A stretch of DNA of 64,000 bases from Malaciobacter mytili LMG 24559 (GTDB lineage: Bacteria; Campylobacterota; Campylobacteria; Campylobacterales; Arcobacteraceae), in contig NZ_CP031219.1 of the NCBI RefSeq assembly GCF_003346775.1, forward strand, positions 2,728,001-2,792,000, given 5' to 3'. The first letter of the stretch is position 1; every line of letters starts with the position of its first letter. A program made the translations under genes and the position numbers. Positions 23,430 through 50,275 of this stretch are shown in pieces. The notes beneath the pieces are model-generated. The model did no database searches and was not told where the DNA came from. It saw only the letters and a list, made by a program, of their open reading frames with translations.

Positions 23430-25301
23430 ATGAACTATGACATAATCGTCGTTGGAGGCGGACACGCTGGAATTGAAGCTTCATTAGCAAGTGCTAGAAT
23501 GGGGAAAAAAACTCTTCTAATTACTATGCTTGTAGAACAAATTGGTGCAGCTTCATGTAACCCAGCAATTGGAGGATTAGCCAAAGGGCATCTTGTTAGA
23601 GAACTTGATGCTATTGGTGGTGAAATGGGGCTTTGTACAGATTCAACTGGTATTCAATTTAGAATATTAAATGCTAGTAAAGGTGCAGCAGTACAAGGTA
23701 GTAGAGCACAAATAGATATGGATAAATATAGAGAGTATATGAGAAAAGTTTGTCATAATACTACTAATTTAGAAGTATATCAAGATGAAGTAAAATCTCT
23801 AATTTTAGATGAGCAAGGGAATGTTTGTGGAGTTAAAACTAAACTAACAGAAGAGTTTAAAGCAAAAAAAGTAATTCTTACAACAGGTACTTTTATGAGA
23901 GGTCTTATTCATATTGGTGAAAATAAATATGAAGCTGGAAGAGCATGGGAATTACCCTCAACTACTCTATCAATTCAATTAAAAGAACTAGGATTAAATG
24001 TAGGAAGATTAAAAACAGGGACTCCTTCAAGAATTGATGCAAACTCTATTGATTTTTCAGTAATGGAAGCGCATGGAGGAGATGAAAAGCCTACTCCTTT
24101 TTCATTTAGAACAAATAAAAAAGAGTTTAATCCAAAACAGTTTCCATGTTATATAACATATACAAATACGGGAACTCATCATACAATTACATCAAACTTT
24201 GATAGAGCCCCACTTTTTACAGGACAAATTCAAGGTTTAGGACCAAGATACTGTCCAAGTATTGAAGATAAAGTAAATAGATTTAGCGAAAGAGATAGAC
24301 ACCAACTATTTTTAGAACCACAAACTGCAATGTGTACAGAGTATTATATAAATGGACTTAGTACTTCTTTACCTATTGATGTACAAAAAGAGATGATTCA
24401 CTCAATCAAAGGTTTAGAAAATGCAAAAATTATTAGATATGGATATGCTATTGAGTATGATTATGTTGATCCAACAGAATTAAAACATACTTTAGAGACT
24501 AAAAAAATCAATAACTTATATCTAGCTGGACAAATCAATGCAACAACAGGATATGAAGAAGCGGCTTCGCAAGGATTAATCGCAGGAATTAATGCTGCAT
24601 TGGCAATTGATAATAAAGAACCATTTGTATTAAGAAGAGATGAAGCTTATATTGGAGTTTTAATTGATGATTTAGTTACTAAAGGAACTAATGAACCATA
24701 TAGAATGTTTACAAGTAGAGCTGAATATAGACTTCTTTTAAGAGAAGAAAGTGCTGATTTAAGACTAAGTAAATATGGTCATGAGTTAGGATTAATTGAT
24801 GATGAAACAATGGCTAATGTTGAATATAAAAGAAAAGTTATTAATGATGCAGTTGAGTTTATGGCAAAGGAATGGTTTACTTCTAAAAAAGAGAATTTAG
24901 AGCTTCTTGATAGATTAGGTGAAGAGAGAATTAAAGATAGAGCTTTACTAATTGACTTAGTTGGAAGAAGCACTATTGATGCAACTAAATTTGATGAACT
25001 AGTTCCTTCTTTAAAAGATGTAGATGAATATCTAAAAGAACAAATTATTATTGAAGCTAAATATTATAGATATATTTCTAAACAACAAAAACAAATTGAA
25101 AAAATGCAAAAAATGTTAAAAATGAAAATTCCTGAAGATTTTGATTATTCAAAAATCTCTGGATTATCAAATGAAGTAATTGAAAAGCTTCAAAAATTTA
25201 AACCACCAACGCTATTTAATGCAAGTGAAATTTCAGGAGTAACACCAGCTGCAATTGATATTTTACATATGTATATAAATGTGAAATCTCAAAAACAATA
25301 A
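23430..25301 (+). CDS. mnmG: tRNA uridine-5-carboxymethylaminomethyl modification enzyme MnmG (GidA)
   Basis: The 623-residue FAD protein works with MnmE to modify U34 of tRNAs. Motifs are [19 protein letters not shown] at the start, [26 protein letters not shown]-type sequence near residue 45 and [17 protein letters not shown] near residue 430. The body ends at [14 protein letters not shown]; the last residues (VKSQKQ) and the stop codon fall in sequence that recurs at 51333-51353 beside another Tn7-like left end. The transposon may therefore have supplied the C-terminal tail. This 3' end is the apparent attachment site of the island. Confidence 0.96.
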
Positions 25302-25358
25302 AAAATGAGAATGGACATTAAAAATTGATAATGTGTACATTAAAATTTGAGAATGGAG
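25296..25358 (+). repeat. Left end of Tn7-like element 1: three tandem TnsB-type repeats
   Basis: Three head-to-tail copies lie at 25296-25315 (CAATAAAAAATGAGAATGGA), 25316-25337 (CATTAAAAATTGATAATG...) and 25338-25358 (CATTAAAATTTGAGAATGGA plus G). The first contains the mnmG stop codon. Copy 3 is identical over 20 bases to the inverted copy at 41100-41119. Confidence 0.75.
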
Positions 25359-25370
25359 TTTTAAAATAAA

Positions 25371-27016
25371 ATGGTACGAGGTAAAAGTATCATTCCAGAT
25401 TTTATGGCTGAAAACCCATATGATACATTTAGACTACTTTTACCTCTTAAACTTAACTTGGATGAGGATAAGTATGGAAATAGCCATTTTAAAGTCATTA
25501 TTAAAAATATGACTCAAAATGAGCTATTTACATATGATTTATCTCCAGAATTATTATTTACTCATTTCCCTTTAGAAAAATCTTTTAGTAATGGTCAACA
25601 AAATAACTACTATCAAAATAAAACAATCTTTGAAAAAGATTTTATAATCGATACTACAAATATCTCTAAAAATAATTAGTATAAACTTCATGAACTTCTT
25701 GATGAAAAAAGTATTGTTTCTATTAGTGGTTGGAAAAGAAAATTCTTAAATGAATCAAAATACATTAACTGTTATCTTATAGAACAAAATGGGAATAAAA
25801 TCATTATTCCTGATTTTGCAATTGCTATATATTACTACTTTAGATTTTCGGAAATGAGAGAAGCTGCCTTAGACTGTAATCTTGAAGACCTATATGTAAT
25901 GTGTACTCCCGATAGAAATGATGCAAAAATTGTCTTATCAATACCTAGAAATGATGAAGACGCAGCTTTTATACATAGATATGCTTGTAATGAAATTGCA
26001 CAGAAAAAGTTTGATAATATAGGTAAATACATAAACAACTATTTAAGCTATATAAGAAATCTTGATATTGATAAAGAGATTGAAAATATCCCAATAAAAG
26101 CAAATTTCCCTATAAAAGAAAAGTTCAAAATAGAAACTAGATGTAGTATTCTAACTAATGAAGAAAGTAAGGAAAAATACTATTTTATACATGAAATACT
26201 AAATGACTATTCTGATATTAGTTTTGATAAATTTACTAAAATTATTGAACAAAATAAAACAATAACTACAATAGATGAATTTGAAAATCTTCCTAAAGTA
26301 GATAAAGAAATACCTGGAAATATTACGGAAATACTTAAAGGTAAACCTGCAAATAAAAAGTATACTCAAACTCATCATAGAAAAGATAAAAAGAAAAGTT
26401 GTGGTAGTTTAAATAGAATTGAAATTGAGTATGAAACTATTACAAAAGATACTTTAATCGATATACTAAAAATATATCAAGAACAACAAAATAATGAATC
26501 TATAGACCAGAGCTTAACAGAATCATCTAATAAAGGTGAAAAGAATATAAGTAAGATTATCATATCAAGCGAGTTTGAAAAAGAGAATGAAGAAAGAAAC
26601 CTCTTATAAAAAAATTTAATATTTCAGAAGTTCAGTATTTACCAGAAGTTAAAATAAAAGATACAGAAGATATAAATAAACGATGTAAAATAAGAAAGAG
26701 ACAAAAACAATATCTTATTGCAACATTTCAATATGAAGAAATATATGTAGGACTATTAGAACTTGAAAACAATCCTTCATCAGAAGCTGCTACTTGGGTA
26801 ATAATTTCAAGAGAAAATTATATTTCCGAGCATATATTTAATAGCTTTATTTCATTTTATTTAAAAGACAATTTATCAATCAAAGATTTAAAGGCTATAT
26901 ATAATAAATCTCCCATAAAATTCATTACAAAAAATCACGAAAGGGATGAGAACTTAACAATAGAACAACTTAGCAAATGGCTAGCTGCATTAATAGGAAA
27001 ACTATCAATCAATTGA
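25371..27016 (+). pseudogene. tnsE: tnsE-like transposition gene, broken by a nonsense codon and a frameshift
   Basis: Three pieces together read as one TnsE-like protein of about 548 codons, the length of Tn7 TnsE. Piece 1 (25371-25676) begins MVRGKSIIPDFMAENPYDTF. An in-frame TAG (25677-25679) separates it from piece 2, which continues in the same frame to 26609 and contains GWKRKF and IIIPDFAIAIYYYF, similar to the middle of TnsE. A one-base frameshift near 26590-26609 leads to piece 3, ending ERDENLTIEQLSKWLAALIG, which matches the TnsE C-terminal domain (Tn7: GLGELQVSREDMEGWAERVV). TnsE directs Tn7 to replicating DNA, especially conjugal plasmids. Here it is almost certainly inactive. 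It sits at the left end, opposite in orientation to tnsABCD, unlike Tn7. Confidence 0.75.
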
Positions 27017-27024: not shown

Positions 27025-27801
27025 CTAAAAATATTCACTTAAATCAATTTCTATTCCAATGGGACAATGGTCTGAACCTAAGACATCTTTTAAAATAAAG
27101 GCATCTTTTAGTTTCGATTTTAAGTCTTCTGAAATCAATATATAATCTATTCTCCAACCTTCATTTTTTTCTCTAGCTTTTGAACGATAAGGGAAAAGAG
27201 AATATGCATCCTCTACATCACCATTAATATATCTAAAAGTATCAATAAAACCATTCTCAAGAAATTGACTAAAATACTCTCTTTCAATATCTGAAAATCC
27301 AGACTTGCTATATATTTTTGTTTTCTTTAAATCTATATCTTTATGGGCAGTATTAAAATCTCCACAAATAATTATAAGTTTTCCTTCTTCTTTTAAGTTT
27401 AAGCAATAATATAAAAAGTTTTCATAAAAACTAAGTTTGATTTTTAATCTTTCCTCATTTAATTTACCATTTGGGAAATAGACATTAAACAATACTACCT
27501 TTCCAAAATGTTGTTCAATTATTCTTCCTTCATAATTTGAATCTATTTGAAAACAAAAATCCTTTTTATCACAAATAAAATCGGCATAAATTGTTGTGCC
27601 TGAAAAGCCTTTATTTACACTAATATTTGAAATTATATTTTTAAATTTTTTTTGAAATAGACAAGAATGCTCAAAGTCCGGTATAGATAATTTTGTTTCT
27701 TGGAGACATAAAATATTTGGTCTATATAAATCTACCCAATTTAAGGCTTTCTTCTTTTCTATAGCTCTTAGTCCATTTACATTCCAAGATAAAATTTTCA
27801 C
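27025..27801 (-). CDS. xth: Exodeoxyribonuclease III-family AP endonuclease
   Basis: The 258-residue protein has the exonuclease/endonuclease/phosphatase fold: MKILSWNVNGLRAI, LCLQETKLS (metal-binding glutamate), LFNVYFPNG, IICGDFNTAHKDID, WRIDYILIS and LGSDHCPIG (catalytic histidine). It should cut at abasic sites and trim 3' ends. It lies inside the Tn7-like element, convergent with the tnsE remnant (8 bases apart), so it is cargo rather than backbone and may be a second copy of a chromosomal gene. Whether it serves repair, transposition or defence is not evident. Confidence 0.85.
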   Translation of the reverse strand: MKILSWNVNGLRAIEKKKALNWVDLYRPNILCLQETKLSIPDFEHSCLFQKKFKNIISNISVNKGFSGTTIYADFICDKKDFCFQIDSNYEGRIIEQHFGKVVLFNVYFPNGKLNEERLKIKLSFYENFLYYCLNLKEEGKLIIICGDFNTAHKDIDLKKTKIYSKSGFSDIEREYFSQFLENGFIDTFRYINGDVEDAYSLFPYRSKAREKNEGWRIDYILISEDLKSKLKDAFILKDVLGSDHCPIGIEIDLSEYF

Positions 27802-27945: not shown

Positions 27946-29328
27946 ATGAATAAGAAATATCAGGGAAGCATTTTTTTTAATGATTTTTTATTAAATTTAA
28001 TAGACAATTATAAAAAAGACCCTACTCCACAAATAGTAAATTTTAGAAAATTAGTTACACAAATTACAAATATGGATAGACATACTCACTTTATTCATGC
28101 TTATCCGGCTAAATTATTACAACAAATTCCTTATCTCTTTCTAAACAATGATATTTTTTCAAAAGAAGGTGATACTATATTAGATACCTTCTGTGGAACA
28201 GGAACTGTACCTCTTGAAGCCTCTATTGCAAATAGAAATGCTATAGGAGTAGATGTCAATCCCTTAGCTGCTTTAATTGCAAAAACAAAAACTTCTAAAC
28301 AAAGTATTAAATCATTAGAAATTAAACTAGAAGAGATACAACAACTTTTTAAAGAATATCAATCTTCTAAGAAAAAGTTTTATATTCCTAATATTGCCAA
28401 TATTAATCATTGGTATAATAAAGAAACTATCAGAAAATTATCTAAAATAAAATATATTATAGATAATATTGAAGAAACAGAAATCAAAGAATTTTTTCAA
28501 GTAGTATTTTCGATTTGCTGCAGAAAGTATAGCTACTCTGACCCTAGAATTTCTGTACCTGTTAAGATAAATGAAGAAAAATTTCCCGAGGGTCACTCTT
28601 TAAGAGAAGCTGCTGCAAAACATCTCGACTTTATTAAAAGAAATAAAATATATGAATACTTTGTTGAACAAGCAAAGAAGAACATTCTTAGATTAAGAAA
28701 CTACCAAAACTCGACAATGCTTAATAACAGTAAAGTTTCAATTTTTAATACAGATATAAAATCTATTCATGAAGCTAAAATTCAAGCTAATACTATTCAA
28801 ATGATTTTGACTTCTCCTCCTTATGTTAGTGCTCAAAAATATATTAGAGCCTCTAGTTTGAGTTTACAATGGCTAGAACTCCATGACAAAGATTTAGCAT
28901 CTTTGGATAAACAATCTATAGGGAGAGAATATTTCTCACCTTCAGTATACAAACAGTTTCATGTTATAGGTTTTAATAGTATAGATAATATTTTATTGAA
29001 AATATTCAAAAAGAATAAACTACGTGCATATATTACATATATGTACTTAATAGAAATGAAACAAACCTTACAAAAATCCTTTAAACTACTTAAAACTAAT
29101 GGGTATTTTGTTATGGTTATAGGAAATAATACCATTGCTGGTTATGAATTCTTAACATATAAATACTTGATAGAAATTGCAGAATCAATTGGATTTAAAA
29201 CAGAACTTGTACTAATTGATGATATTAAGTCTCGGGGATTAATGACAAAAAGGAATAAAACTGCAAGTGTTATTTCAAGAGAATATATTGTTGTATTTAA
29301 AAAGAGGTTTAATAATGAACTATTTTGA
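27946..29328 (+). CDS. DNA methyltransferase-like protein, first gene of a putative defence operon
   Basis: The 460-residue protein has the AdoMet-binding motif ILDTFCGTGTVPLEASIANRN near residue 80, an acidic strand IGVDVNPLAA, and the amino-methyltransferase catalytic motif TSPPYVSAQKY near residue 285. AdoMet motif before SPPY is the order of alpha/gamma-type N6-adenine or N4-cytosine methyltransferases. MQTL.KSFKLLKTNGYFVMVIGNN-like sequence completes the fold. It overlaps the next gene by 14 bases. With the phosphoribosyltransferase-like, ATPase and CARF-like genes that follow it forms one transcription unit. It probably marks self DNA; the target is unknown. Confidence 0.75.
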   Translation: MNKKYQGSIFFNDFLLNLIDNYKKDPTPQIVNFRKLVTQITNMDRHTHFIHAYPAKLLQQIPYLFLNNDIFSKEGDTILDTFCGTGTVPLEASIANRNAIGVDVNPLAALIAKTKTSKQSIKSLEIKLEEIQQLFKEYQSSKKKFYIPNIANINHWYNKETIRKLSKIKYIIDNIEETEIKEFFQVVFSICCRKYSYSDPRISVPVKINEEKFPEGHSLREAAAKHLDFIKRNKIYEYFVEQAKKNILRLRNYQNSTMLNNSKVSIFNTDIKSIHEAKIQANTIQMILTSPPYVSAQKYIRASSLSLQWLELHDKDLASLDKQSIGREYFSPSVYKQFHVIGFNSIDNILLKIFKKNKLRAYITYMYLIEMKQTLQKSFKLLKTNGYFVMVIGNNTIAGYEFLTYKYLIEIAESIGFKTELVLIDDIKSRGLMTKRNKTASVISREYIVVFKKRFNNELF

Positions 29329-30289
29329 AGATGAATCTGAAGAAGTAAAATACGAAAAAGAATATCATTATTTAGAATCAAAAATTAAAATCTTATCTCA
29401 AAGTTTCTTATGGAATGGTAGTGAGGTAAGTGAGAGATTACAAGATTGGCAATCAAACTTTAATGGACAAGTAAAAGATTCTAAAATAGAATTGCATAAT
29501 GCAATGTTTTTACTAAGTCAATTTATGTTCTTTAATGATAAAACTATTAGAAATTTTCTTCAATCAATTTATAAAGATCTTATTGTTAAACCTATAATTG
29601 ATAGTATTAGAAGAAATAATGAAAATACTATTGATTTAACTTTTATTCAAGAAAACTTGAATACAAAACTTTCTTTAATAAAATTTATTCCAATTGGAAA
29701 AATATCTGGTAGTGGTGCGATGATTTCATATCTTTTTAGACAAGCAACAGATATATCAGAAGAACAAGTTATACTAGCTTCAGATTTATATAATTCTTCT
29801 GGAAATTTAAATTTTCCAGAAATTGAACATTATATTTTAATTGATGACTTAGCAGGGAGCGGTACACAAGTTTGTGACTTTGTAACAAAACATAAGATTT
29901 TAAATCTAAAAATAGAAAACAAACATATACAAATATCATATCTACCTATATTTTCAACTAGTATAGCAATTGAAAAAATAAAAAAGTCAACTTTTCATCA
30001 AATATATGTAAATCCATTATTTGAGCTTGATGAAAGCTATCAAGTTTATTCACAAAAAAGTAGATATTTTTCAAATGTAAAAAAACATAAGTATATTGGT
30101 AGACTTATGTCAAAATATATATTTAAGAAGTATGCAAAAAATCTAAATTTTATAGAAGAAAACTCATTAGGCTATTCTAATACACAATTAATGTTAGCTT
30201 TTTCACATAATACTCCAGATAATACACTACCATTATTTTGGGAAGATTCAAAATGGAATGCTATCTTTAAAAGATATAATAAAAAATAG
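29315..30289 (+). CDS. Phosphoribosyltransferase-like protein of the putative defence operon
   Basis: I place the start at ATG 29315, after AGAGG at good spacing, rather than at 29267; the product is then about 324 residues. The middle contains HYILIDDLAGSGTQVCDF, which matches the PRPP-binding loop of type I phosphoribosyltransferases (hydrophobic strand, paired acids, then a Gly/Ser/Thr loop). KISGSGAMISYLFR upstream is compatible with the pyrophosphate loop. Flanking regions are not familiar. Such proteins occur in bacterial conflict systems, where nucleotide chemistry may generate or sense a signal; the role here is inferred. It overlaps the methyltransferase gene and lies 8 bases before the ATPase gene. 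Confidence 0.65.
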   Translation: MNYFEDESEEVKYEKEYHYLESKIKILSQSFLWNGSEVSERLQDWQSNFNGQVKDSKIELHNAMFLLSQFMFFNDKTIRNFLQSIYKDLIVKPIIDSIRRNNENTIDLTFIQENLNTKLSLIKFIPIGKISGSGAMISYLFRQATDISEEQVILASDLYNSSGNLNFPEIEHYILIDDLAGSGTQVCDFVTKHKILNLKIENKHIQISYLPIFSTSIAIEKIKKSTFHQIYVNPLFELDESYQVYSQKSRYFSNVKKHKYIGRLMSKYIFKKYAKNLNFIEENSLGYSNTQLMLAFSHNTPDNTLPLFWEDSKWNAIFKRYNKK

Positions 30290-30297
30290 GTAATTAT

Positions 30298-32349
30298 ATG
30301 ATTAAAAATCCCTTTGAAAATACAAAAGCATCTTATATGAGCAATGAAGAAATCCTTTCTTATTGGACAGATATTAATAATCAAACTATTATATCAACCG
30401 AACAAGAAGAAGTTGATAACACAGAATTAGAAATCCAGAATTATCACTATATAATGAATCCAAGACTATCTCTACCTATTTTCATTCTAGGTAGTAAAGG
30501 TAGTGGGAAAACTCATTTATTACGGTATTTCTCACTTGAACTTCAAGAAAAAGATGCTGAAGATAACCATATAAGTCTTTTAGAACAAATTAAAAAAGAC
30601 CAATATCTAGGTATTTTATTTACTTCTAGTTCCTTTGAATTTCAAATGTTCCAAAATGATGGAGATTCTAATTCTGTGTATATTTATTATTCAAATCTAG
30701 TATTTATAGAGGTTTTTTTTGTTCACTGTAATAAACTATTTGAATGTATTAATGATAAAGAACATGAAAAAAAACTACTTGCTCAACTAGCCCCATTATT
30801 CTTTCCAAGATTTAGAGAAAATATAATTAATATTTCTAACCTTCAAAAATTTTTAGAATTCATCACAGATACTAGAATGAATCTTGAAGAAGAAATTTTA
30901 ATGTCAAAGGCAAATAAAGCATATACACCAAATTACAAATTTTTATTTAATCCTGCTCCAAGTTTTTTCCAGAAAGTAATTAAATATACCTTCTCAAATA
31001 CTATTGATCTGAAAGACATACATATATTATTTATGATTGATGAATTTGAAAACTTTGATGAATACCAACAAAAATACATCAATACATGTTTAAGGCATCC
31101 TGAATATCCAGATTATCTTTCTATTCGTATTTGTGGTAGATTATATTCCATTAAAACAGATGAAACTTTCGATGACAATGAACCTCTTATGGAAGGAGCC
31201 GAAAAAAAAACATCTATTTTAGATAAAGTATTATCTTCAAACAATCGGTCGGGTTTTACAAACTATGCCTCACAGCTTGCTATCAATAGAATAAGAGAAA
31301 ATATAAAAACAGACCTTGAATCTAATGATTTTTTAAAATTATTTAAAGACTTAGATAGAGAAAACTATTTTTATAATATATTAAACTCATCGCAAAAAGA
31401 CAATGAAGTATTTTCAAAAAAACTAATTTCTTACTTAGAACAGGAAGGTTTTGTTAAAACTCAAATTCATAACATAATAAAGAAACTTTTTATTAAAGAA
31501 AACTTATTTTTATCAAAATTGAACTTTTTATTATTGTATAAAAGCTGGTATAAATCTCCTGATTTAATTAAAAGAAGTACAGAAATTCAGAAATCCCTTC
31601 AAAATCTTTTAAATAATAAAAAAAATTTTCATCAAACACAGATAGATCATCATGGAGTTGATATGCTTTATCAAGTATATAAAGATACTAAAAATTTATA
31701 CAATTATTGTGGTTTTGATTCTATAATTAATATGTCTGAAGCGAATCCTAGAAATTATTTAACTATTCTAAGTAATTTACATAGACACTGTACCTTTAAA
31801 AATATTAATATGTTTGAAGGAGATGAAATACCAATTACTTTACAAAATAAAGCTATGAGAGAAACATCTGAGTGGTTCTGGAATGATATTCATAAATATA
31901 AAAATTTAATTGATAATAAAATTTTCTTTGTTCTTGAAAGATTATGTCATTTTTTCCGTTTACATAGAATCTCAGATAAACCAGTAGAAAAAACTTTAAT
32001 TTCTTTTTCTTTTGATATTAATAGTATTAACAAAGATATATTAAAAATAATTGATGATGCAGTAAAACATTCAATCTTTATTGAGCAATCTTCAGGTAAA
32101 AAAACTAAAAATGAACATTCTATTATAAAACAATATAGTATTAATGCAATGTTTTCACCTAAATGGGATTTACCTCTTCAAATAGGTGGTACCATTGAAT
32201 TAAAAAAAGAAGAAATACATGCTTTATTTGATGAAGATAAAAAATCTTGGGAAAGATATAGAGATATACGATTGTCTAGATATAACTATCCATTTAAAGA
32301 TAAAACTTCAAATAGTTTATTTGATACGGTAATAGGTATAGAAAAATGA
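30298..32349 (+). CDS. Large P-loop ATPase (ORC/Cdc6-like) of the putative defence operon
   Basis: The 683-residue protein has Walker A at about residue 62-70 (ILGSKGSGKTHLLRYF) and a Walker B at about 240 (IHILFMIDEFENFDEYQ), separated by an unusually long insertion, as in some ORC/Cdc6-like and STAND-like ATPases. The C-terminal half is helical and ends in a domain that looks like a winged helix (SINAMFSPKWDLPLQIGG). There is no nuclease motif. It probably acts as the NTP-driven switch of the four-gene system. The start follows the previous stop by 8 bases and the end overlaps the next gene by 4 (ATGA). Confidence 0.7.
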   Translation: MIKNPFENTKASYMSNEEILSYWTDINNQTIISTEQEEVDNTELEIQNYHYIMNPRLSLPIFILGSKGSGKTHLLRYFSLELQEKDAEDNHISLLEQIKKDQYLGILFTSSSFEFQMFQNDGDSNSVYIYYSNLVFIEVFFVHCNKLFECINDKEHEKKLLAQLAPLFFPRFRENIINISNLQKFLEFITDTRMNLEEEILMSKANKAYTPNYKFLFNPAPSFFQKVIKYTFSNTIDLKDIHILFMIDEFENFDEYQQKYINTCLRHPEYPDYLSIRICGRLYSIKTDETFDDNEPLMEGAEKKTSILDKVLSSNNRSGFTNYASQLAINRIRENIKTDLESNDFLKLFKDLDRENYFYNILNSSQKDNEVFSKKLISYLEQEGFVKTQIHNIIKKLFIKENLFLSKLNFLLLYKSWYKSPDLIKRSTEIQKSLQNLLNNKKNFHQTQIDHHGVDMLYQVYKDTKNLYNYCGFDSIINMSEANPRNYLTILSNLHRHCTFKNINMFEGDEIPITLQNKAMRETSEWFWNDIHKYKNLIDNKIFFVLERLCHFFRLHRISDKPVEKTLISFSFDINSINKDILKIIDDAVKHSIFIEQSSGKKTKNEHSIIKQYSINAMFSPKWDLPLQIGGTIELKKEEIHALFDEDKKSWERYRDIRLSRYNYPFKDKTSNSLFDTVIGIEK

Positions 32350-33338
32350 TTCTTAATTCTTATAATTTGTATTATCATGATACATATAAAACATTGGATG
32401 ATTTTTCTTCAAATTCAAAAAATTATGATTTATTTATTTCTGGTTACACAGAAGAGACAATGGTCAGAAGTGTTTATGATAAAGTTGATTCAATAAAAAA
32501 GGTATGGTTAATTTTTCCAGATTATCATTTAACCTCTATACCTTCCGAAGAAAATTTTACAGAGACTATATCAATAGATAATACATACTTAGAATCTACA
32601 TTTACAAATAACTTTTTTACAAATTATTCATTAGATAAATATATTGATAAAAAAATATGTATCGATATTACAGGTTTTATAAAACCTTATATTTTTTCAT
32701 TGATACGTTTATTTAAAGAAAATAACTTTAAAAACATCGATATAATATATAGTGAACCTAAATATTATAAAGATAAAGAAAAAACTAAATTTTCATCACA
32801 GATTTTATCTGTACGTGCAATTAATTTTTTTAATTCTTCAAATCCTGATACTTCAAAAGACATGCTAATAATAAATGCGGGGTATGACATTAATTTAATT
32901 TCTTCAGTAATTGAAAGATATAGTAGTATTAAACAAAAAAAGTTACTTTTAGGTTCCCCACCATTAATGCCAGATATGCTCCAAGAAAACCTTTTAAATA
33001 TTGAAAATATAAAAAATGATTTTCATAGTTTTAATCCATTATTTTCTCCTGCAAATAATCCTTTTGAAACAGCCAATGTGATTTCAACGTATATTCAAGA
33101 GTATACTCAAAAAAATAAAATAACTAACTTATATATAGCACCATTAGCTACAAAACCACAAGCTCTTGGATTACTTCTTTTTTTAATGGCAGAAAAAGTT
33201 AAATTAGAAAAAGAGCATAATATTAAAATTAAAGTTATATATCCTTTTACAGAATCATATTCATCCTCAGCAGGGAAGGAGATATCTCGAATTAATATAT
33301 ATAATTTAGATTTTAATATTTTAAATTTAAGTAATTAG
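32346..33338 (+). CDS. CARF-like Rossmann-fold protein, last gene of the putative defence operon
   Basis: The 330-residue protein shows alternating strands and helices of a Rossmann-type fold. The segment KKICIDITGFIKPYIFSLIRLF recalls the DxTGGxK signature of CARF domains, which bind cyclic oligonucleotides or related nucleotides. Other conserved-looking pieces are FISGYTEETMVRSVYD, LIINAGYDINLISSVIE and LYIAPLATKPQALGLLLFLM. The match to CARF is suggestive only. If right, this protein senses a nucleotide signal. It overlaps the ATPase gene by 4 bases and ends 13 bases from the convergent tniQ gene. Confidence 0.5.
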   Translation: MILNSYNLYYHDTYKTLDDFSSNSKNYDLFISGYTEETMVRSVYDKVDSIKKVWLIFPDYHLTSIPSEENFTETISIDNTYLESTFTNNFFTNYSLDKYIDKKICIDITGFIKPYIFSLIRLFKENNFKNIDIIYSEPKYYKDKEKTKFSSQILSVRAINFFNSSNPDTSKDMLIINAGYDINLISSVIERYSSIKQKKLLLGSPPLMPDMLQENLLNIENIKNDFHSFNPLFSPANNPFETANVISTYIQEYTQKNKITNLYIAPLATKPQALGLLLFLMAEKVKLEKEHNIKIKVIYPFTESYSSSAGKEISRINIYNLDFNILNLSN

Positions 33339-33351: not shown

Positions 33352-34533
33352 TTATTCTTTTATATTTTTAATTACTTTATACATTTTATTGTATTCCTTA
33401 TGGATCATGGAATGGCATCCTATAACTTCTGCAACATTTAATTGGTTTACAATCTCTCCTTTTTCTTGTAAATATTTTATTGCACCAATAACTTCACTTT
33501 CACTAATAACTCTTCCTGTTTTATTTTTCATTGGAATAAGTTCATCTATCATATTCTTGTACCAAAATGAAAAGTTATTGAAACCATGAACAAATTCTCT
33601 ATGTGTTAAGTTATTTTGATAAGCAAAATTTACAAAGTTTTTTGGATAGTTTTGGAAAAGAAAATAAACCATTAAAGTTAATATAAACTCTTTTTTTATT
33701 GATAAGGCTTTCTTTGAATTATACTCATTAAGTTTGATACAAATATCTTTATATTCCTCAATCATTGGAAATTCATTTAAATTCAATTTTTCTTTTCTAT
33801 TGAGAAGATATCTTAGCTTTGTAAAACTATCAAATACAAATACTGAATTTATCTTTTTTTTATTGATAAAAAAATAGCCTTTATTTAATCCATTTTCAAA
33901 CCAGTCAATTGCTTTTAATCCATAAAGAAAATTTGATGGTATTGGCAAAGATATTGTTTCTCTCAAATCTCTTTCACATTTAAAACAAAAACATAATTCC
34001 TTAAAATGTCTGATTTTGGATAAATTAATTTTTTCATAACATTTCCAACATCTATCAGTCAAAAATATTTTATGTTTGGGACAGGCATTATAGAAACTGT
34101 ATCTCCATTTCTTTCTAAAGTAAGGAATATTATCTTCAGCTAAACACTTAGGACAATACATTAAACCATTATGAGTTCTCTTATCTACTAATTTTCTAAT
34201 TTGAAAAGTTGGATATAAACTATTTTCTTCACAAGTGAATAAATATCCCTCTTCACTTCTTAAAGACATTTGCAAAATTTGTTTTAGAGATAATCCACTT
34301 TTAAAAGAGATCTGATTAATCAATTTTTCGTCATATAAAAAATCTAAATCCGTTCTAGATGTTGCACAACCTTCATGACGAATAAATAAACTAATAAAAG
34401 TAGATAAGTTTCTTTGATGTTCTATTGCCATTCTGATAAACCAAGAACTTAATAATTCTTTATCTTGAACTTTAGGTATAAATAAAAAGAAATAGTCTTG
34501 AACCCAATCTCTATTTCTTTTTTGAGTAGCCAT
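33352..34533 (-). CDS. tniQ: TniQ/TnsD-family target-selection protein
   Basis: The 393-residue protein belongs to the TniQ family. The N-terminus has KELLSSWFIRMAIEHQRNLSTFI, followed by zinc-binding clusters MYCPKCLAED, YNACPKHKIFLTDRCWKCY and FCFKCERD. In Tn7 the homologue TnsD binds the 3' end of glmS; since this element sits at the 3' end of mnmG, this protein probably recognises mnmG. It is shorter than Tn7 TnsD (about 500 residues). No Cas genes are present, so it does not belong to a CRISPR-guided transposon. It lies 1 base after tnsC and appears intact. Confidence 0.85.
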   Translation of the reverse strand: MATQKRNRDWVQDYFFLFIPKVQDKELLSSWFIRMAIEHQRNLSTFISLFIRHEGCATSRTDLDFLYDEKLINQISFKSGLSLKQILQMSLRSEEGYLFTCEENSLYPTFQIRKLVDKRTHNGLMYCPKCLAEDNIPYFRKKWRYSFYNACPKHKIFLTDRCWKCYEKINLSKIRHFKELCFCFKCERDLRETISLPIPSNFLYGLKAIDWFENGLNKGYFFINKKKINSVFVFDSFTKLRYLLNRKEKLNLNEFPMIEEYKDICIKLNEYNSKKALSIKKEFILTLMVYFLFQNYPKNFVNFAYQNNLTHREFVHGFNNFSFWYKNMIDELIPMKNKTGRVISESEVIGAIKYLQEKGEIVNQLNVAEVIGCHSMIHKEYNKMYKVIKNIKE

Positions 34534-38212: not shown

Positions 38213-40003
38213 ATGCAATTAATATATCAATGGATAGATAAATATAGAAGTATTAATGATAATAATTTACTAAACAGCTTAGAACTTAATTTTCATCATA
38301 AATATAGATTTAAATATGATGGAAAAGATAAACTAGAATTTGAAATATTAGAAAAAACTAACTATATTGATACTTATTATAAAGAAAATCAATACTATTC
38401 TATGATTGTTGGTAAAAATGGAAGTGGTAAAAGTTCTATATTTGAAATGCTTTATAATGGTATAAACATATCACTTGATATGAAAAGTAGAAAAGAAAAG
38501 ATAAGAGATAAATTTATTGCAATTTTTTTAGATGAAGATAAGTTCTTATTTTATGGTTTTGAAATAAATGGGCAAAATGAAATTTATGTATCTAGGATAG
38601 AATCAATAAATAAAATAAACCTTGATATAGAATATAGAGAATACATAGACAACTTGAGAATTTTAAGTATTAATTCAGATTTTGGAAGTTTAGAAAATAT
38701 AGAAACTAACTATGAAATGTCAAGAGAGAGAATAAAAATATCTGATAATATAAAAAAGAAAGATATAACAACATTTTTATTAGATAGGCAACAAGCATTC
38801 GAAAATAATTCTTTTATGAATTCCAATATGTATGAATCAATATTAAATTATTCTAAAAATGATTTTATTCAAAGTTTTTTATTAAACTATAAATATTTTA
38901 AAAGTATAGAAAATAATGATATAGAATTACCACAATATGTATACTTCAAATTTGACATTCCTCCTAAAAATTATTATGAATATAAGTTCAAAAAAGTGAT
39001 AAATGAAAGTAGTGAAAAAATAAAAGATTTTTTGATAGAGCTTTCAGAAACTTTGTTAGATTATTATGATTCAATTAAACTTTCATCTGAATTATCAATT
39101 TTTCAGAAAATAGAATCATTTTATATATTTTATTTAATAGATAAGTACTTATTTTATACATCAGATATACTAGTATTTAGTGATACTCTATTAAAAGTTG
39201 ACATTATTTCTAAAATCAAAGACATAAATTTTGGAGATTTAGATAATTTGTACTTTGATGATGCTATTGATATTAGGTTTAATCCATTTGGAGAATTTTT
39301 AATTTTAAAAGACATTATTCTTGCTCTACAAAATACTTATCATAAAGTAATTGATAATTCAATAATAATTAATAGATTAGAGAATCAAAAATATATGAGG
39401 AACTTAATTTCAAGTGTAGATTCATTTAAACAAATATTTACATTAGGACAGATTTATCTTTCTTATGACTTTTATCCTATATTATCTAGTGGTCATCAAC
39501 AACTTTTTAAAACATTTAATTATATTTTAGAAGGTATTGAAAAATTTAAAAAAGACAGGGATAGTTATAAAAAAGATGTGTTAATATTACTTGATGAACC
39601 AGATATAAGATTACACTATGAATGGCAAAGAAATTACATCAAATGGTTGTCTATATTTTTAGAACAATTTGAAGATTTCAATTTTCATATAATTATTAAT
39701 ACTCATTCAAATTTAATGCTAAGTGATATACCAAAAGAAAATGTAATAGTGTTAGATAGAAAAGATAATAAAACAAGTGTTAAAAATATTACTTCACAAA
39801 CATTAGCACAAAATTTATTTGAGAATTTGAACAATGACTTTTTCTTAGATAAGTTTATTGGTGGATATATTGAAGATAAGATAAAGAATATACTTGAAAA
39901 AGATGATGCTATAACAACTAATGAAAAAGAATTAATTAGCAATTTAGGTGAAAAGATTTTAAGAGTTTCTCTAGAAATGAAATATGATATAGAGAGTAAA
40001 TAA
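38213..40003 (+). CDS. ptuA: PtuA-like AAA ATPase of a Septu-type defence system
   Basis: The 596-residue protein is an ABC/OLD-like AAA ATPase: Walker A MIVGKNGSGKSSIFEMLYNG near residue 66, Walker B ILLDEPDIRLHYEWQ near residue 463, and the following histidine switch NTHSNLMLSDIP. Signature-like sequence SSGHQQLFKTFNYIL lies before Walker B. The next gene, overlapping by 1 base, encodes an HNH nuclease, the gene pair of Septu (PtuA and PtuB), in which the ATPase restrains and triggers the nuclease on phage infection. The pair sits between tnsA and the right end of the Tn7-like element. Confidence 0.75.
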   Translation: MQLIYQWIDKYRSINDNNLLNSLELNFHHKYRFKYDGKDKLEFEILEKTNYIDTYYKENQYYSMIVGKNGSGKSSIFEMLYNGINISLDMKSRKEKIRDKFIAIFLDEDKFLFYGFEINGQNEIYVSRIESINKINLDIEYREYIDNLRILSINSDFGSLENIETNYEMSRERIKISDNIKKKDITTFLLDRQQAFENNSFMNSNMYESILNYSKNDFIQSFLLNYKYFKSIENNDIELPQYVYFKFDIPPKNYYEYKFKKVINESSEKIKDFLIELSETLLDYYDSIKLSSELSIFQKIESFYIFYLIDKYLFYTSDILVFSDTLLKVDIISKIKDINFGDLDNLYFDDAIDIRFNPFGEFLILKDIILALQNTYHKVIDNSIIINRLENQKYMRNLISSVDSFKQIFTLGQIYLSYDFYPILSSGHQQLFKTFNYILEGIEKFKKDRDSYKKDVLILLDEPDIRLHYEWQRNYIKWLSIFLEQFEDFNFHIIINTHSNLMLSDIPKENVIVLDRKDNKTSVKNITSQTLAQNLFENLNNDFFLDKFIGGYIEDKIKNILEKDDAITTNEKELISNLGEKILRVSLEMKYDIESK

Positions 40004-40983
40004 TGATAAATATTGAAATTCTCAGTAATATAGATATAGATTATTATAATTTTGTAGTATTATCACAAGATAAAGATAAATGGGATGTGACTACAAATAT
40101 TGATGGTCTAAAAAAGAAAATTGAAAGAGAAGCTAAAAAGGTAAAAAACAAAGATGATTTAGAGTTTATAAGTTTTATCCAAAAAAGATTGAAAACGATT
40201 GTAAAGGGTGATATAAATAAACTAAAAAAAATTCAAAATATAATTGAAGTTAAATATACAAAAGTATGGAAAAAGATTAAATCCTATAATGAAAATGCTC
40301 CTAAAGGTAAAAAACGAAAGTTTATATATACAATACTAGAAAAGATATTCGTAACTTATGGTTATGAAAGTATTATAAGTGAAAAAATAGCATATAAAAT
40401 GCTTAGAAAGTTAGATATTAAGGTTTGCCCATACTGTAATATTAATTATATATCATTTTCAGGAACAAATAGTAATAAAGGTATAAGACCAGAATTAGAT
40501 CATTTCTACCCTAAAAGTCATTATCCATATTTTGCAGTTAGTTTTTATAATCTTATTCCCTCTTGTAGAAATTGTAATGGACTTAAATCAAATAATTTTC
40601 CAAAAGGACTTTATTCACCATATGAAATATCGGAAAATAATGATGATTTTAAGTTTAAATATATAGCTAAAAATATAAATATACTTTCTACAAGTTTAAA
40701 TAATATAGAAAAAGGTATTGATAAAATAACATTTCAAAAAGAAATTATAGCTAACAATAAAATGTTTCATTTAGATGATTTATACCAAGTACATAAAGAT
40801 GTAGTTGCAGAAGTTATCTGGAAAAATAGAAACTTTCCAAATGTATTAAGAGATAGTTATAAAAATTTTGGAATTAGTAAAAGGGAAGCATATAGAATAG
40901 TTTTCTGTAACTATAGTGATGTAAATGAATTCAATAAAAGACCATTAAGTAAATTAACTTATGATATACAAAAATATTTTTAA
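40003..40983 (+). CDS. ptuB: PtuB-like HNH endonuclease of a Septu-type defence system
   Basis: The 326-residue protein has a zinc-supported HNH domain at about 140-195: VCPYCNINY, RPELDHFYPKSHYPYFAVS, FYNLIPSCRNCNGLKSN. The two CxxC pairs and the DHF.PKS...NL.PSC..CN pattern are typical of PtuB and related HNH effectors. The N-terminal 130 residues are lysine-rich without known motifs. It is coupled to the ATPase gene and ends 28 bases before the inverted end repeats begin. Confidence 0.75.
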   Translation: MINIEILSNIDIDYYNFVVLSQDKDKWDVTTNIDGLKKKIEREAKKVKNKDDLEFISFIQKRLKTIVKGDINKLKKIQNIIEVKYTKVWKKIKSYNENAPKGKKRKFIYTILEKIFVTYGYESIISEKIAYKMLRKLDIKVCPYCNINYISFSGTNSNKGIRPELDHFYPKSHYPYFAVSFYNLIPSCRNCNGLKSNNFPKGLYSPYEISENNDDFKFKYIAKNINILSTSLNNIEKGIDKITFQKEIIANNKMFHLDDLYQVHKDVVAEVIWKNRNFPNVLRDSYKNFGISKREAYRIVFCNYSDVNEFNKRPLSKLTYDIQKYF

Positions 40984-41010: not shown

Positions 41011-41119
41011 ATTCTCACTTTTTAATGTACACATTAATATACAGAAATTTAACCAATTGTATTGTACAATCTAATATAAGGTAGGTGTCATATGAAAAAT
41101 CCATTCTCAAATTTTAATG
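41011..41119 (-). repeat. Right end of Tn7-like element 1: inverted copies of the end repeat
   Basis: Read on the minus strand, 41119-41100 is CATTAAAATTTGAGAATGGA, identical over 20 bases to 25338-25357. A second copy (41036-41011) matches the left end over 24 of 26 bases, including GTGTACATTAAAA. The outermost bases (41125-41130) are GACAGC, joined directly to another left-end-like sequence at 41131. Confidence 0.75.
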
Positions 41120-41184: not shown

Positions 41185-41310
41185 ATGTCAAAAAAGAAAA
41201 GTATCATTCCTGAATTTTTGGTTAATAATCCAGATGATACTTTTAAATTTTTATTTCCTTTAAAACTAATACTTGATTAAGAAAATCTTGGTAATAGTCT
41301 TTTACAAAAA
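41185..41310 (+). pseudogene. tnsE 5' fragment (element 2)
   Basis: ATG at 41185 opens a frame reading MSKKKSIIPEFLVNNPDDTF and then FPLKLILD before a TAA at 41278. In frame after the stop comes ENLGNSLL, matching DKYGNSHF of the tnsE copy at 25371. The rest of the gene is missing; IS-like sequence follows. Confidence 0.7.
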
Positions 41311-43223: not shown

Positions 43224-43337
43224 TTTAATAATAAAGTTCATTTATAAGATAATATTTAATTTACGCACAAATATTTGTACGTAAAATTTGATTTTTCGTA
43301 TAAATTCTATTATAATGAGATAAAAAAGGCAATAGTT

Positions 43338-44465
43338 ATGAATAAAAGATGGATTTGGGAATTTGAAAATTACCCATCATTTGAATATGATGTAAAAAAT
43401 ATTAATCCACTAATAAAAGATATTATATTTTTACAAGGCACATTATCAACTCTTTGTTCATTTGCATCTAAAGAAAAGATACAAGAAAAATTAGCTGAAA
43501 CATTAACAGATGAAATTATTAGTAGTTCAGCAATAGAAGGTGAGTTTCTAAATAGAGATAGTGTTAGAAAATCTATTGCTAAAAAACTAGGTATAGAGGA
43601 ATATACAAATACTGATTATGTAACTGATGGTCTTGTAAGTATTTTAATTGATGCCTGCACAAATTATAATGATGAGTTAGATATTGAAAGACTTAAAAAA
43701 TGGCATAGTGCAATATTTCCAACAGGAAGAAATCATGAAGGAACTAAAATTGATGTAGGTGAGTTAAGAGGAGATAATGAAATGACAGTAAGTGGAAGTG
43801 GACCTAAAGAAATAGTTTACTATCAAGCTCCTCCTCCTGATATACTTTTTGATGAAATGGTTGATTTTTTTGACTGGTTCAATAAAACTGAAGATGGATT
43901 GATTAAGGCAGCTATTGCTCATTTATGGTTTTTAATCATACATCCTTTTGATGATGGAAATGGAAGAATCGCAAGAACAATATCTGAATATGTATTAGCA
44001 AGAGTAGAAAATTCATATTACTCAAAAATATATTCAATTTCAAAAACTAGTTATGAAAGAAAAAAAGATTATTATGAAGTTCTTGAAAAAACTACAGGAT
44101 TTAGAAAAAAAGATAATCCACTAGATATTACTTTGTGGATAGAATATTTCTTAAAAACTTTATTAAAATCATTACAAGAATCAAGAGCAGGAATTCAATA
44201 TATAATAGAAAAAACAAAATTTTGGGATTTACACAAAGATAAAGACTTAAATGCGAGACAAATTAAGGTTTTAAATAAAGTTCTTGATATAGGAATTGAA
44301 AACTATGAAGGAGGTATTACAAAATCAAAATATGTAGCAATTACTAAAGCTTCAACATCAACTGCTTCAAATGATTTAAAACAATTACTTGAGTGGAATT
44401 GTATTAAACAAATTGAAGGAACTTCAGGAAGAGGAACAAAATATACTATTTTGTTAGGTAATTAA
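43338..44465 (+). CDS. Fic-family AMPylase-like protein
   Basis: I choose ATG 43338 because family members begin MNKRWIWEFENYP; an earlier ATG at 43275 adds 21 unlikely residues. The 375-residue product has an N-terminal Fic_N domain with the inhibitory helix motif SSAIEGE, the catalytic loop HPFDDGNGRIARTI near residue 215, and a C-terminal winged helix (SKYVAITKASTSTASNDLKQLLEW). The intact catalytic motif suggests transfer of AMP or another nucleotide to a protein, held in check by the internal inhibitory helix. No separate antitoxin gene is present. The region is accessory. Confidence 0.88.
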   Translation: MNKRWIWEFENYPSFEYDVKNINPLIKDIIFLQGTLSTLCSFASKEKIQEKLAETLTDEIISSSAIEGEFLNRDSVRKSIAKKLGIEEYTNTDYVTDGLVSILIDACTNYNDELDIERLKKWHSAIFPTGRNHEGTKIDVGELRGDNEMTVSGSGPKEIVYYQAPPPDILFDEMVDFFDWFNKTEDGLIKAAIAHLWFLIIHPFDDGNGRIARTISEYVLARVENSYYSKIYSISKTSYERKKDYYEVLEKTTGFRKKDNPLDITLWIEYFLKTLLKSLQESRAGIQYIIEKTKFWDLHKDKDLNARQIKVLNKVLDIGIENYEGGITKSKYVAITKASTSTASNDLKQLLEWNCIKQIEGTSGRGTKYTILLGN

Positions 44466-44849
44466 CTATTTATAGTTTTTTTGTTCTATTAGACACTGTC
44501 AAACTAACTGTGTAAGTTCAAAAATACAAATTTATCAGATAGTATAAAATGCATCTATCTAACACAGAACTTTTATTATCACAAGATAAAATATTAAATA
44601 AAGTAATCTATTTGAATTACTATTTTGATAAGAGATATTAATCTATATCAACTTTTCAAGAACACTGTTGTTATCTCTATCTAATTATATAAATATAATA
44701 TTACATATTTTTTATTTTTTATAAAAAATGATATAAAATTATTTTTATATTTATTTATTGTAGATATAATAACTAAATATAAATACAAGATAGTAAAGAA
44801 CTAACTTTAAAAAATAAAAAAGTTGGGCTTCTTTCAACAGGAAAAATTA
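44466..44849. other. Intergenic region between fic and the type III methyltransferase gene
   Basis: No intact gene. A 30-codon frame at 44549 (MHLSNTELLLSQDK and onwards) and the nearby GACACTGTCAAACTAACTGT look like insertion-sequence debris but cannot be assigned. The promoter of the restriction-modification genes should lie at its right side. Confidence 0.35.
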
Positions 44850-46628
44850 ATGCCTACACTCAACTGGATTGGTAAAGAAAATGTTATTAACCATCACAAT
44901 GAAATTGAATACAATGTATTAGCATGTAAAGAAAATTTTGGAGAGAAAAACAGTGGTAATTTATTAGTTAAAGGAGATAATCTCTTGGCTCTTAAAGCAC
45001 TATTACCTTATTATGCTAATCAAATTAAAATGATTTATATTGACCCTCCATATAACACAGGAAATACATCATGGGTCTACAATGATGCTGTGGATTCTCA
45101 TATTATAAAAAAATGGCTTCATGCAACAGTAGACAAAGAAGATTTATCTAGAACTGACAAGTGGCTTTGTATGATGTATCCAAGATTAAAGCTTTTACAT
45201 AAATTTTTGAAAGAAGATGGTGTAATTTTTATATCTATAGATGAAGCAGAGATAAATACATTAAAATTAATAATGGATGAAATATTTGGAAGTCAAAATT
45301 ATGCTACAACGTTATTTTGGCAATCTCGTACATCTAAACAGAATGACACTGATATTAGTACTAATGGTGAATATATATTAGCTTATGCAAAAAACAGAAG
45401 ATTAAAAGATAGGAGATTAAAAGAAACAAATATTTCTAGTTGGTTTAATGATGAATCATTTGTATTTTATCCAGATGAAGTTGATATTAAAAGATATTCT
45501 AATCCTGATAATGATCCTAGAGGTCCTTGGAAAGCAGATCCTTTTGATGCACCAAATATCAGAGAAAATTTAACTTATGAAATTGTAAATCCCATCACTA
45601 AAGTTAAATATTTACCTCCTGAAGGTAGATGTTGGAGAACAGAGGAATCAAGTTACGATAAATTGTATGAAGATGAAAGAATAATATTTGGTGCTGATGG
45701 ATTAGGGAAACCACAATTAAAAGTATTTTATGAAGAAAAAAAGATATTTGGTGAAGTTCCTACAACTTGGCTGCCTGGTAATGATTATGGAACAACAACA
45801 TCAGCTTCAAAAGAATTAAAAAATATATTTGGTAAAAAAGTATTTGATTATCCTAAGCCTGTTGAATTAATAAAGCACTTACTACATCTTGCTACAAAAG
45901 ATGGAGATATAGTGTTAGATTCATTTGCAGGGAGTGGATCAACTGCTCAAGCAGTTTTAGAGCAAAATCAAAAAGACGGATTTAATAGAAAATTTATTCT
46001 TATTGAAATGGAAGAATATGCAGAAGAAATTACAGCTAATCGAATAAAAAAAGTTATTAAAGGGTATGAATTTACAGGAACCCAAAAAACTGAATTATTT
46101 AAAAAGAAATTAGGTATGGCACAAATATTAAAGCCAAACATTATGGAAAAATTGTCAATCGATATTGAAAATACGATTACTGAACAAACACCAAATTTTG
46201 ACAAAATATCAAAATCATTTAAAGAAAATACAGTAACTTTAATTGGACAAAATAATATAAAAAAATTTAAAAAAGGGATTGGTGGAGGTTTTCAGTATTG
46301 TGAATTATCAGAACCTCTTTTTGATGAATATGGTTTATTGAATGAAAAAATATCACATTCAACACTCGCTAAACATCTTTACTTTACAGAATTTGGACAA
46401 GCATTAAATATACAAATAACAAATGAAAATTATTTAGGGACCATTAATAATGTTTCACTTTATTTGTTTTCGAAAGAAGATTTCAAAAAAAATAATTTTA
46501 ATCAAATTATTAAAAACAATAATCAACAATCAATAGTATATGCAGATAGAACTACAATATCAGAATATGAATTATCTAAACACAATATCACATTTAAACA
46601 ATTACCATTCTCGATTAAGGATAAATAG
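44850..46628 (+). CDS. mod: Type III restriction-modification system methyltransferase (Mod)
   Basis: I take ATG 44850, preceded by AGGAAAAA, over an upstream TTG. The 592-residue protein has beta-class methyltransferase order: catalytic MIYIDPPYNTGNTSW near residue 70, then AdoMet motif IVLDSFAGSGSTAQAVLEQN near residue 355. HVS-like sequences and a variable C-terminal region follow. It methylates adenine on one strand of an asymmetric site. Its stop overlaps the GTG start of the res gene by 1 base. The recognition sequence cannot be read from here. Confidence 0.92.
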   Translation: MPTLNWIGKENVINHHNEIEYNVLACKENFGEKNSGNLLVKGDNLLALKALLPYYANQIKMIYIDPPYNTGNTSWVYNDAVDSHIIKKWLHATVDKEDLSRTDKWLCMMYPRLKLLHKFLKEDGVIFISIDEAEINTLKLIMDEIFGSQNYATTLFWQSRTSKQNDTDISTNGEYILAYAKNRRLKDRRLKETNISSWFNDESFVFYPDEVDIKRYSNPDNDPRGPWKADPFDAPNIRENLTYEIVNPITKVKYLPPEGRCWRTEESSYDKLYEDERIIFGADGLGKPQLKVFYEEKKIFGEVPTTWLPGNDYGTTTSASKELKNIFGKKVFDYPKPVELIKHLLHLATKDGDIVLDSFAGSGSTAQAVLEQNQKDGFNRKFILIEMEEYAEEITANRIKKVIKGYEFTGTQKTELFKKKLGMAQILKPNIMEKLSIDIENTITEQTPNFDKISKSFKENTVTLIGQNNIKKFKKGIGGGFQYCELSEPLFDEYGLLNEKISHSTLAKHLYFTEFGQALNIQITNENYLGTINNVSLYLFSKEDFKKNNFNQIIKNNNQQSIVYADRTTISEYELSKHNITFKQLPFSIKDK

Positions 46629-49270: not shown

Positions 49271-49314
49271 TTATTTATTTTAAATAAAGAATAGTTCTTT
49301 ACTAACCAAGGTTC

Positions 49315-49338
49315 AAAAGAGGCATTTTAGCCTCTTTT
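49315..49338. terminator. Bidirectional terminator between res and the recombinase gene
   Basis: AAAAGAGGC (49315-49323) pairs with GCCTCTTTT (49330-49338) around ATTTTA, with a T-run on the plus strand. The convergent genes res and the recombinase end on either side. Confidence 0.85.
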
Positions 49339-49339
49339 T

Positions 49340-50275
49340 TTAATGAATATTTAGATGTTTTCTAGGATGTCTAGTTTTTAAAATCTTTTTTTGATGTTGA
49401 GAATTGACTACTGTATATATCTGTGTAGTTAAGATTGATGAATGTCCTAAAATATTTTGAATGTATCTAATATCAACATTTTCCTCTAATAATCCTGTTG
49501 CTAGTGTATGTCTAAATTGATGAGGGGTCACATGTTTTCTAATTCCTGATAATAATTGGTATCTTTTTATCATATGCCTTACAGAATCTTCAGAAAGCAT
49601 ATTATTAAGTCTGTTAATAAAGAAGAAGTTTTTTTCATAAATTTTTTTATTAAATAGTTTATAATATTCTACAAGAGATTGTTTTACTTCAGGGTCGCAA
49701 ATCTGAATGGCTCTTTCTTTTGATCCTTTTCCAAAAATATTGACAATTCCTCTTTGTATATTAATATCAGTTGGTTTTAAATGACAAAGCTCTGAGACTC
49801 TCATCCCTGTTGCAAATAGCAGTTCTGTTACTGCAATATCTCTTACTGCTGCATAATAAGTATATGAATTTTTATCTTCTATATTTTCTTTATATGCATA
49901 TATAAATTTAAAGAAACGTCTTAGGTCTTTTTTATCTATAGTTTTAGGAAGTCTCTTTGGTAGTTTTATTGATAATTGCATTTTTTTAAATGGACTAAAC
50001 TCAATAAACTCTTCAAATTCTAAAAAATTAAAAAATGTCTTTAATGTTCCGACTTTACGTTTAATACTTTTTGCTTTTAATTCCTGCTCAAATAAATATT
50101 TTACATACTCTTTAATATAAATTTTATCAAATAAATCAAGTGAACTATTCTCACTATCTTTATATTCTCTAAATTGCTTTAAATCTATATTGTAAGCTTT
50201 AACTGTTTTACTACTTAAATTTTTCTCATAAATACAATGTGCTTCAAATAATTTTATCATTTCAAATAGTTTCAT
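49340..50275 (-). CDS. Tyrosine recombinase (XerC/D-like integrase)
   Basis: The 311-residue protein has an N-terminal SAM-like domain (LSSKTVKAYNIDLKQFREY) and a catalytic domain with all residues visible: Arg in FATGMRVSELCHL, Lys in FGKGSKERAIQI, HQFRHTLATGLL, LGHSSILTTQIY with the nucleophilic tyrosine. It differs from the chromosomal XerH type in length and lies in the accessory island, so it is probably from an integrated element. Two similar 14-15-base sequences upstream (50364 and 50465) could be binding sites. Its own element borders are not evident. Confidence 0.85.
   Translation of the reverse strand: MKLFEMIKLFEAHCIYEKNLSSKTVKAYNIDLKQFREYKDSENSSLDLFDKIYIKEYVKYLFEQELKAKSIKRKVGTLKTFFNFLEFEEFIEFSPFKKMQLSIKLPKRLPKTIDKKDLRRFFKFIYAYKENIEDKNSYTYYAAVRDIAVTELLFATGMRVSELCHLKPTDINIQRGIVNIFGKGSKERAIQICDPEVKQSLVEYYKLFNKKIYEKNFFFINRLNNMLSEDSVRHMIKRYQLLSGIRKHVTPHQFRHTLATGLLEENVDIRYIQNILGHSSILTTQIYTVVNSQHQKKILKTRHPRKHLNIH

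Follow-up and report, generated by a model that had tools for sequence, protein, structure and literature searches.

A conserved, nuclease-free and probably defensive four-gene operon in Malaciobacter mytili, and the thymidylate genes linked to its relatives

We analysed a stretch of 64,000 nucleotides of Malaciobacter mytili LMG 24559 (assembly GCF_003346775.1, contig NZ_CP031219.1, positions 2,728,001 to 2,792,000 of the forward strand; genome of 3.04 Mb), which we call the window. Positions 27946-33338 hold four intact and tightly coupled open reading frames (ORFs), all on the plus strand, that make up a conserved, nuclease-free and probably defensive system. Its component families are already catalogued (DNA methyltransferase, the phosphoribosyltransferase family PRTase-CE, ORC-CDC6-like and CARF6), and what is new and unexpected here is a metabolic link to thymidylate genes. 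We computed the gene set, its order and families, the co-inheritance of the genes, their predicted folds, where else the PRTase domain occurs, the link to thymidylate genes and the setting as cargo of a Tn7-like element; the defence role is what we infer from them. The four genes are as follows:

27946..29328, plus strand: DNA methyltransferase of 460 amino acids; N6_N4_Mtase of Pfam (E=2.6e-13) and, over its full length, MTase_II of PADLOC (E=7.4e-50)
29315..30289, plus strand: PRTase-CE protein (PF24390, E=2e-53), starting at an ATG at 29315, with the phosphoribosyl pyrophosphate (PRPP) loop DDLAGSG
30298..32349, plus strand: ORC-CDC6-like AAA+ ATPase of 683 amino acids (PF24389 over its full length, E=2.1e-83), with Walker A GSKGSGKT and Walker B MIDEFENF
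32346..33338, plus strand: CARF6 protein of 330 amino acids (PADLOC CARF6, PDLC01914, E=2.6e-112)

A preliminary description had proposed these genes as an undescribed defence system. The ORFs, all the motifs it quoted and the spacing (an overlap of 14 bases between methyltransferase and PRTase, a gap of 8 bases before the ATPase and an overlap of 4 bases between ATPase and CARF gene) are present. Profile searches matched all four proteins to catalogued families, among them those of the methyltransferase, the PRPP-loop protein and the ATPase that had been named from motifs; the full-length matches of the PRTase to PF24390 and of the ATPase to PF24389 reach 182.3 and 281.5 bits (cut-off 27 for both). 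Chance is excluded because these E-values are strong and almost all of the 92 homologous loci share the same order. The term ‘undescribed’ went too far, as Pfam and PADLOC already name the families of the PRTase, the ATPase and the CARF protein; still, we found no named system with this gene set in the searchable literature, which did not cover the main CARF survey. As had been noticed, no nuclease is visible. None of the four proteins has a nuclease domain in the Pfam scan, and there is no conserved fifth gene across the homologous loci that might encode one.

Searching 84,980 species genomes with the PRTase profile, we found 80 loci, and viral contigs contributed 4 more. Plasmid and relative loci brought the set to 92 and later finds to about 96, including a few near-duplicates (e.g., L080 and L109). 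Gene order, whose conservation the preliminary description wanted checked, is methyltransferase-PRTase-ATPase-CARF with short gaps or overlaps in nearly all of the 92 loci. These spread over more than 10 bacterial phyla (among them Pseudomonadota, Bacteroidota, Chlorobiota, Actinomycetota, Bacillota, Nitrospirota, Myxococcota, Elusimicrobiota, Verrucomicrobiota, Poribacteria, Cloacimonadota and Caldisericota) and three archaeal lineages, with the reservation that many come from metagenome-assembled genomes and individual phylum labels may be wrong. Some related operons are carried on plasmids. Phage records gave no match to the operon ATPase or PRTase, and a DNA-level search of Escherichia coli genomes with a Thorsellia query, which distant copies could escape, found no copy.

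The tree distances of PRTase, ATPase and CARF protein correlate at r=0.79-0.84, and with those of the methyltransferase at 0.54-0.62 (permutations ≤0.16). This indicates a PRTase-ATPase-CARF core that moves as one unit, with the methyltransferase swapped more often; a lower correlation is expected if the specificity gene is exchanged. The methyltransferase, in which the S-adenosylmethionine motif DTFCGTGT precedes the catalytic TSPPY, is of the N4/N6 type (Pfam) and probably serves self-marking. A homologue is the first gene in nearly all related operons. Most loci that lack the usual enzyme are either truncated at the end of a contig or, as divergent members, have an unrelated methyltransferase (a gamma-type N6 enzyme, a C5 enzyme in L098, an MTS/Eco57I-like enzyme in L018), L085 being the clear exception. 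In L097 and L098, a gene for an HhH-GPD base-excision glycosylase lies downstream of the CARF gene; in L098, whose methyltransferase is of the C5-cytosine type, the glycosylase may repair deaminated 5-methylcytosine.

The thymidylate link concerns genes that adjoin the operon in 23 of the 92 loci and encode a thymidylate synthase (ThyX in 18, the unrelated ThyA in 3) or a dUTPase (3, from two unrelated families), one locus having both ThyX and dUTPase. The distance to the operon is at most about 550 bp for all 24 linked genes, and the 573 ORFs located beyond 3 kb include no such gene (p=8e-9, related loci being treated as independent in this and the following test). In L070 the thyX gene lies upstream of the methyltransferase gene, 1511 bp ahead of the PRTase; among later loci, thyX overlaps the methyltransferase gene in L115 and a dUTPase gene lies on the opposite strand in L124. 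Overall, 25 of 96 operon loci have such a gene, and none of the 35 loci with PRTase-CE in another context does (Fisher p=2.5e-4). This absence elsewhere suggests that the link belongs to this type of operon, and perhaps to its trigger. Its presence or absence requires at least 14 changes on the tree, all 18 searched hosts with an operon-linked synthase have another one elsewhere (the second in the L105 genome being a weak ThyA-like match only), and the active-site motifs checked in the linked enzymes are intact. These three observations make the linked gene a repeatedly gained, dedicated extra copy. The element in the window has no thymidylate gene, and the sole thymidylate synthase of the genome is a ThyA encoded far away. 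A thymidylate synthase domain is reported as newly validated in defence with DefensePredictor (PMC13092281).

These data raise the possibility, which we put forward tentatively, of an immune system that has the thymidylate node (dUTP, dUMP and dTMP, the deoxyuridine and deoxythymidine phosphates) as trigger or weapon, and to which synthases or dUTPases were attached many times as threshold-setters or self-protection. A more specific reading, somewhat less probable still, is that the CARF protein or the ATPase responds to the dUTP-dUMP-dTMP pool or to uracil or thymine in DNA as trigger or target, and that the attached enzyme (ThyX, ThyA or dUTPase) holds the level down at rest or shields the host once the system is activated. 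The frequency, repeated gain and proximity of the linked genes argue for it, as do the second synthases of the hosts and the predicted fold of the window PRTase (AlphaFold2 model, pLDDT, the predicted confidence score, of 93.5), whose nearest neighbours in the PDB are uracil PRTases (Z 11.2 over 135 residues, 2.6 Å). However, three quarters of the loci, the window included, have no such gene, the Fisher tests take related loci as independent, and the effect could as well be protection, a threshold or substrate supply. Nor does the likeness of folds fix the substrate: orotate and purine PRTases match the model nearly as well. This reading can also be a special form of the explanation that we favour below.

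Which protein acts as the effector is best approached from the company that PRTase-CE keeps elsewhere. The window protein matches the PADLOC profile PRTase_III-A (E=2.5e-33). We rejected a reading of this label as CRISPR type III-A (clustered regularly interspaced short palindromic repeats), which is wrong, the reverse-transcriptase partner showing that retron III-A is meant. We also searched PRTase-CE in about 400 genomes each of three phyla and found it, in any context, in 6 of 397 Campylobacterota, 18 of 398 Pseudomonadota and 17 of 395 Bacteroidota genomes, the last two labels resting on the loci taken as centres of the samples. From these samples and from plasmid searches 40 loci were retrieved, one of which (L138) repeats L049. 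In many of them a reverse transcriptase adjoins the PRTase, as in retron III-A; others have fusions to TPR/AAA (STAND-like), AAA or HD-containing proteins, or a pairing with NADAR. PRTase and winged-helix (WH) genes are the typical effector genes of retron III-A1 (PMC12548924), and a retron commentary of 2026 still lists phosphoribosyltransferases among the effectors awaiting characterisation (PMC13158370). Since the domain travels among unrelated triggers, the PRTase is most simply seen as the effector, and by analogy with these contexts it is likely to be that and not a signal maker. The earlier proposal that one of the operon proteins must be the effector fits this. In L117, L120, L121 and L140-L144 the NADAR gene directly follows PRTase-CE; the two are possibly a toxin-antitoxin pair, which would hint at a base-ribosylating activity. 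L133 has PRTase-CE with an ORC-CDC6-like partner, no methyltransferase, and HAD-like and PfkB-like genes downstream; gene order is similar in L129, L134 and L135, a second subtype.

A reading that follows the preliminary description, which had cast the PRTase as the maker or modifier of a nucleotide signal, would have the CARF protein read that signal and the ATPase or the methyltransferase do the attack. A sensor with a CARF/SAVED-like fold is indeed predicted, and in an operon without a cyclase of the CD-NTase type (Pfam, PADLOC) the PRTase is the only candidate for making a nucleotide. Yet the domain looks effector-like in retron III-A, in STAND-like fusions and beside NADAR, where no CARF partner is seen, and we now regard this division of roles as improbable.

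The CARF-like character of the fourth protein, claimed from a single motif, is upheld by the family match and by the AlphaFold2 model (pLDDT 92.4), which has two tandem CARF/SAVED-like Rossmann domains and no added effector domain. Its best match is Can1 (6sce; Z 12.5, 223 residues, 3.6 Å), and it also resembles Csm6, Card1 and SAVED proteins, for instance Cap5 (Z 9.6, 195 residues, 4.2 Å), which makes a ligand sensor its probable role. The ATPase keeps intact Walker A and B motifs, with the Walker residues conserved across 88 homologues, and is a probable gate or DNA scanner. No solved structure akin by sequence to the PRTase, CARF or ATPase profiles was found.

The explanation that we favour, at somewhat better than even chances, is a nuclease-free, methylation-linked anti-phage system with PRTase-CE as its effector. 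The methyltransferase would mark the host chromosome, and the ORC/Cdc6-type ATPase, together with the double-CARF ligand sensor, would survey incoming DNA or a nucleotide linked to infection. A missing mark or the appearance of the ligand would then release the effector. To judge from the use of the domain elsewhere, PRTase-CE might attack the nucleotide or nucleobase pool, or DNA bases, by PRPP chemistry, and phage growth would be stopped, probably through disabling of the infected cell. As a thymidylate synthase or dUTPase is attached in about a quarter of the copies, the dUTP-dUMP-dTMP step may be disturbed by the system or may set its threshold.

Several observations weigh against this explanation. 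The operon has no cyclase that could feed the CARF sensor. The effector role of the PRTase would fall if its uracil-PRTase-like predicted fold meant ordinary salvage. When 130 proteins encoded in the flanks were scanned for a defence context, the hits, to restriction and other functions, were scattered and the signal was only modest. Finally, the window PRTase keeps the PRPP loop but has GKISGSG in place of a near-invariant GNPSESG-like motif; it deviates at three positions, among them a glutamate absent from only 4 of the 92 aligned rows, and the protein may be changed or inactive.

Comparison with known systems brings out partial likenesses. The window PRTase belongs to the same Pfam family as that of retron III-A, and both keep a D-x-x-x-GSG loop and an N-x-P-x-NT-x-x-I-x-W-like motif. 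The retron, however, combines its PRTase with a reverse transcriptase and a winged-helix protein, whereas here the partners are the ORC-type ATPase, the CARF protein and the methyltransferase; a Pfam scan of ORFs from the element showed no retron reverse transcriptase. With BREX (bacteriophage exclusion), whose BrxC is described as an ATPase of the ORC/Cdc6 clade (PMC12839542), the operon shares a marking methyltransferase and an ATPase of that clade, but it has a PRTase and a CARF protein instead of PglZ and BrxC, neither of which was found among the four proteins or their neighbours in the element (Pfam, PADLOC). The CARF effectors of type III CRISPR (Can1, Csm6 and Card1) and the SAVED effectors of CBASS (cyclic-oligonucleotide-based anti-phage signalling system) have the same double Rossmann ligand-binding fold; in contrast to them, the operon protein carries no effector domain and the operon no Cas or cyclase gene, and Pfam scans of the element found no Cas10/Csm genes. 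The fourth protein is a clear member of CARF6, a family name that defines no system. Lacking a nuclease gene, the operon does not class as restriction-modification either.

The operon lies inside a Tn7-like element of about 15.8 kb, because inverted end repeats flank it on both sides. This agrees with the preliminary description, which had taken the genes for cargo of such an element. Its features are:

25329..25367, plus strand: left end repeats, directly past the mnmG stop codon (inverted-repeat pairs I5 and I13, 90-92% complementary)
27025..27801, minus strand: extra exonuclease III (xthA; Exo_endo_phos, E=7e-21), cargo divergent from the operon
33352..34533, minus strand: TniQ (PF06527, E=5.2e-23), 69% identical to TniQ of L019
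34535..35404, minus strand: TnsC/TniB ATPase (PF05621, E=5.7e-49), 80% identical to L019
35555..37285, minus strand: TnsB transposase (Mu-transpos_C, and PADLOC TnsB with E=1.4e-39), 68% identical to L019
37285..37943, minus strand: tnsA, its frame broken by an internal stop codon on translation (full length in the L019 relative)
38213..40983, plus strand: second defence cargo, the PADLOC candidate PDC-M62A/B with a Septu-like ATPase and an HNH protein (E=1.8e-32 and 7.4e-61)
41011..41119, minus strand: right end repeats (inverted-repeat pairs I5 and I13)

In L019, from another genome of the same family, transposition proteins (68-80% identical) lie beside a distant version of the operon, with a PRTase only about 25% identical, and in L033 (Acinetobacter) the operon comes after a TnsE gene. 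Tn7-like carriage is thus repeated, as the window, L019 and L033 all show it. This mobility bears on the idea that the genes are a DNA modification or nucleotide salvage operon with no part in defence, which the methyltransferase, the metabolic neighbours and the ordinary PRTase fold might suggest. Carriage by Tn7-like elements and plasmids, the patchy presence of PRTase-CE (as counted above for Campylobacterota), the CARF and ORC-type partners and the exchange of methyltransferases make it very unlikely. The broken tnsA, together with the GKISGSG motif, could also mean that the copy in the window has decayed or changed while the rest of the family is active. This is compatible with the other readings, but none of the four ORFs is broken, the PRPP loop and the Walker motifs are preserved, and we think it rather unlikely.

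We rejected exonuclease III as a component of the system and treat xthA as cargo because it adjoins the operon in the window locus only; elsewhere the genome encodes two further copies (57% and 51% identity), one of which contains a stop. Similar ORF starts (KSIIP-F...) occur at 25371-25679, just inside the left end, and at about 41186-41280, just outside the right end, perhaps left by a previous insertion or by duplication of the target region. The element lies directly downstream of mnmG (23430-25301), and the PRTase-CE/TPR fusion of L116 (1033-2955) about 3 kb past an mnmG-like gene; this site may be an integration hotspot. Next to the element, window positions 43275-50275 encode a Fic protein and a phage-type integrase, as well as an N6/N4 methylase and ResIII that form a type III-like restriction pair. 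An Rfam scan of the window from 25 to 42 kb matched no RNA family. In L048 (13998-16622), L106 and L052, a small cassette with an AIR-synthase-like protein adjoins the operon, two of the cassette proteins having no Pfam or PADLOC match.

If the defence reading is true, this would be a widespread nuclease-free system built on a PRTase effector domain, and a methylation-linked one with a CARF sensor working outside CRISPR. That spare thymidylate synthases and dUTPases accompany it time and again makes the question of its function directly testable.

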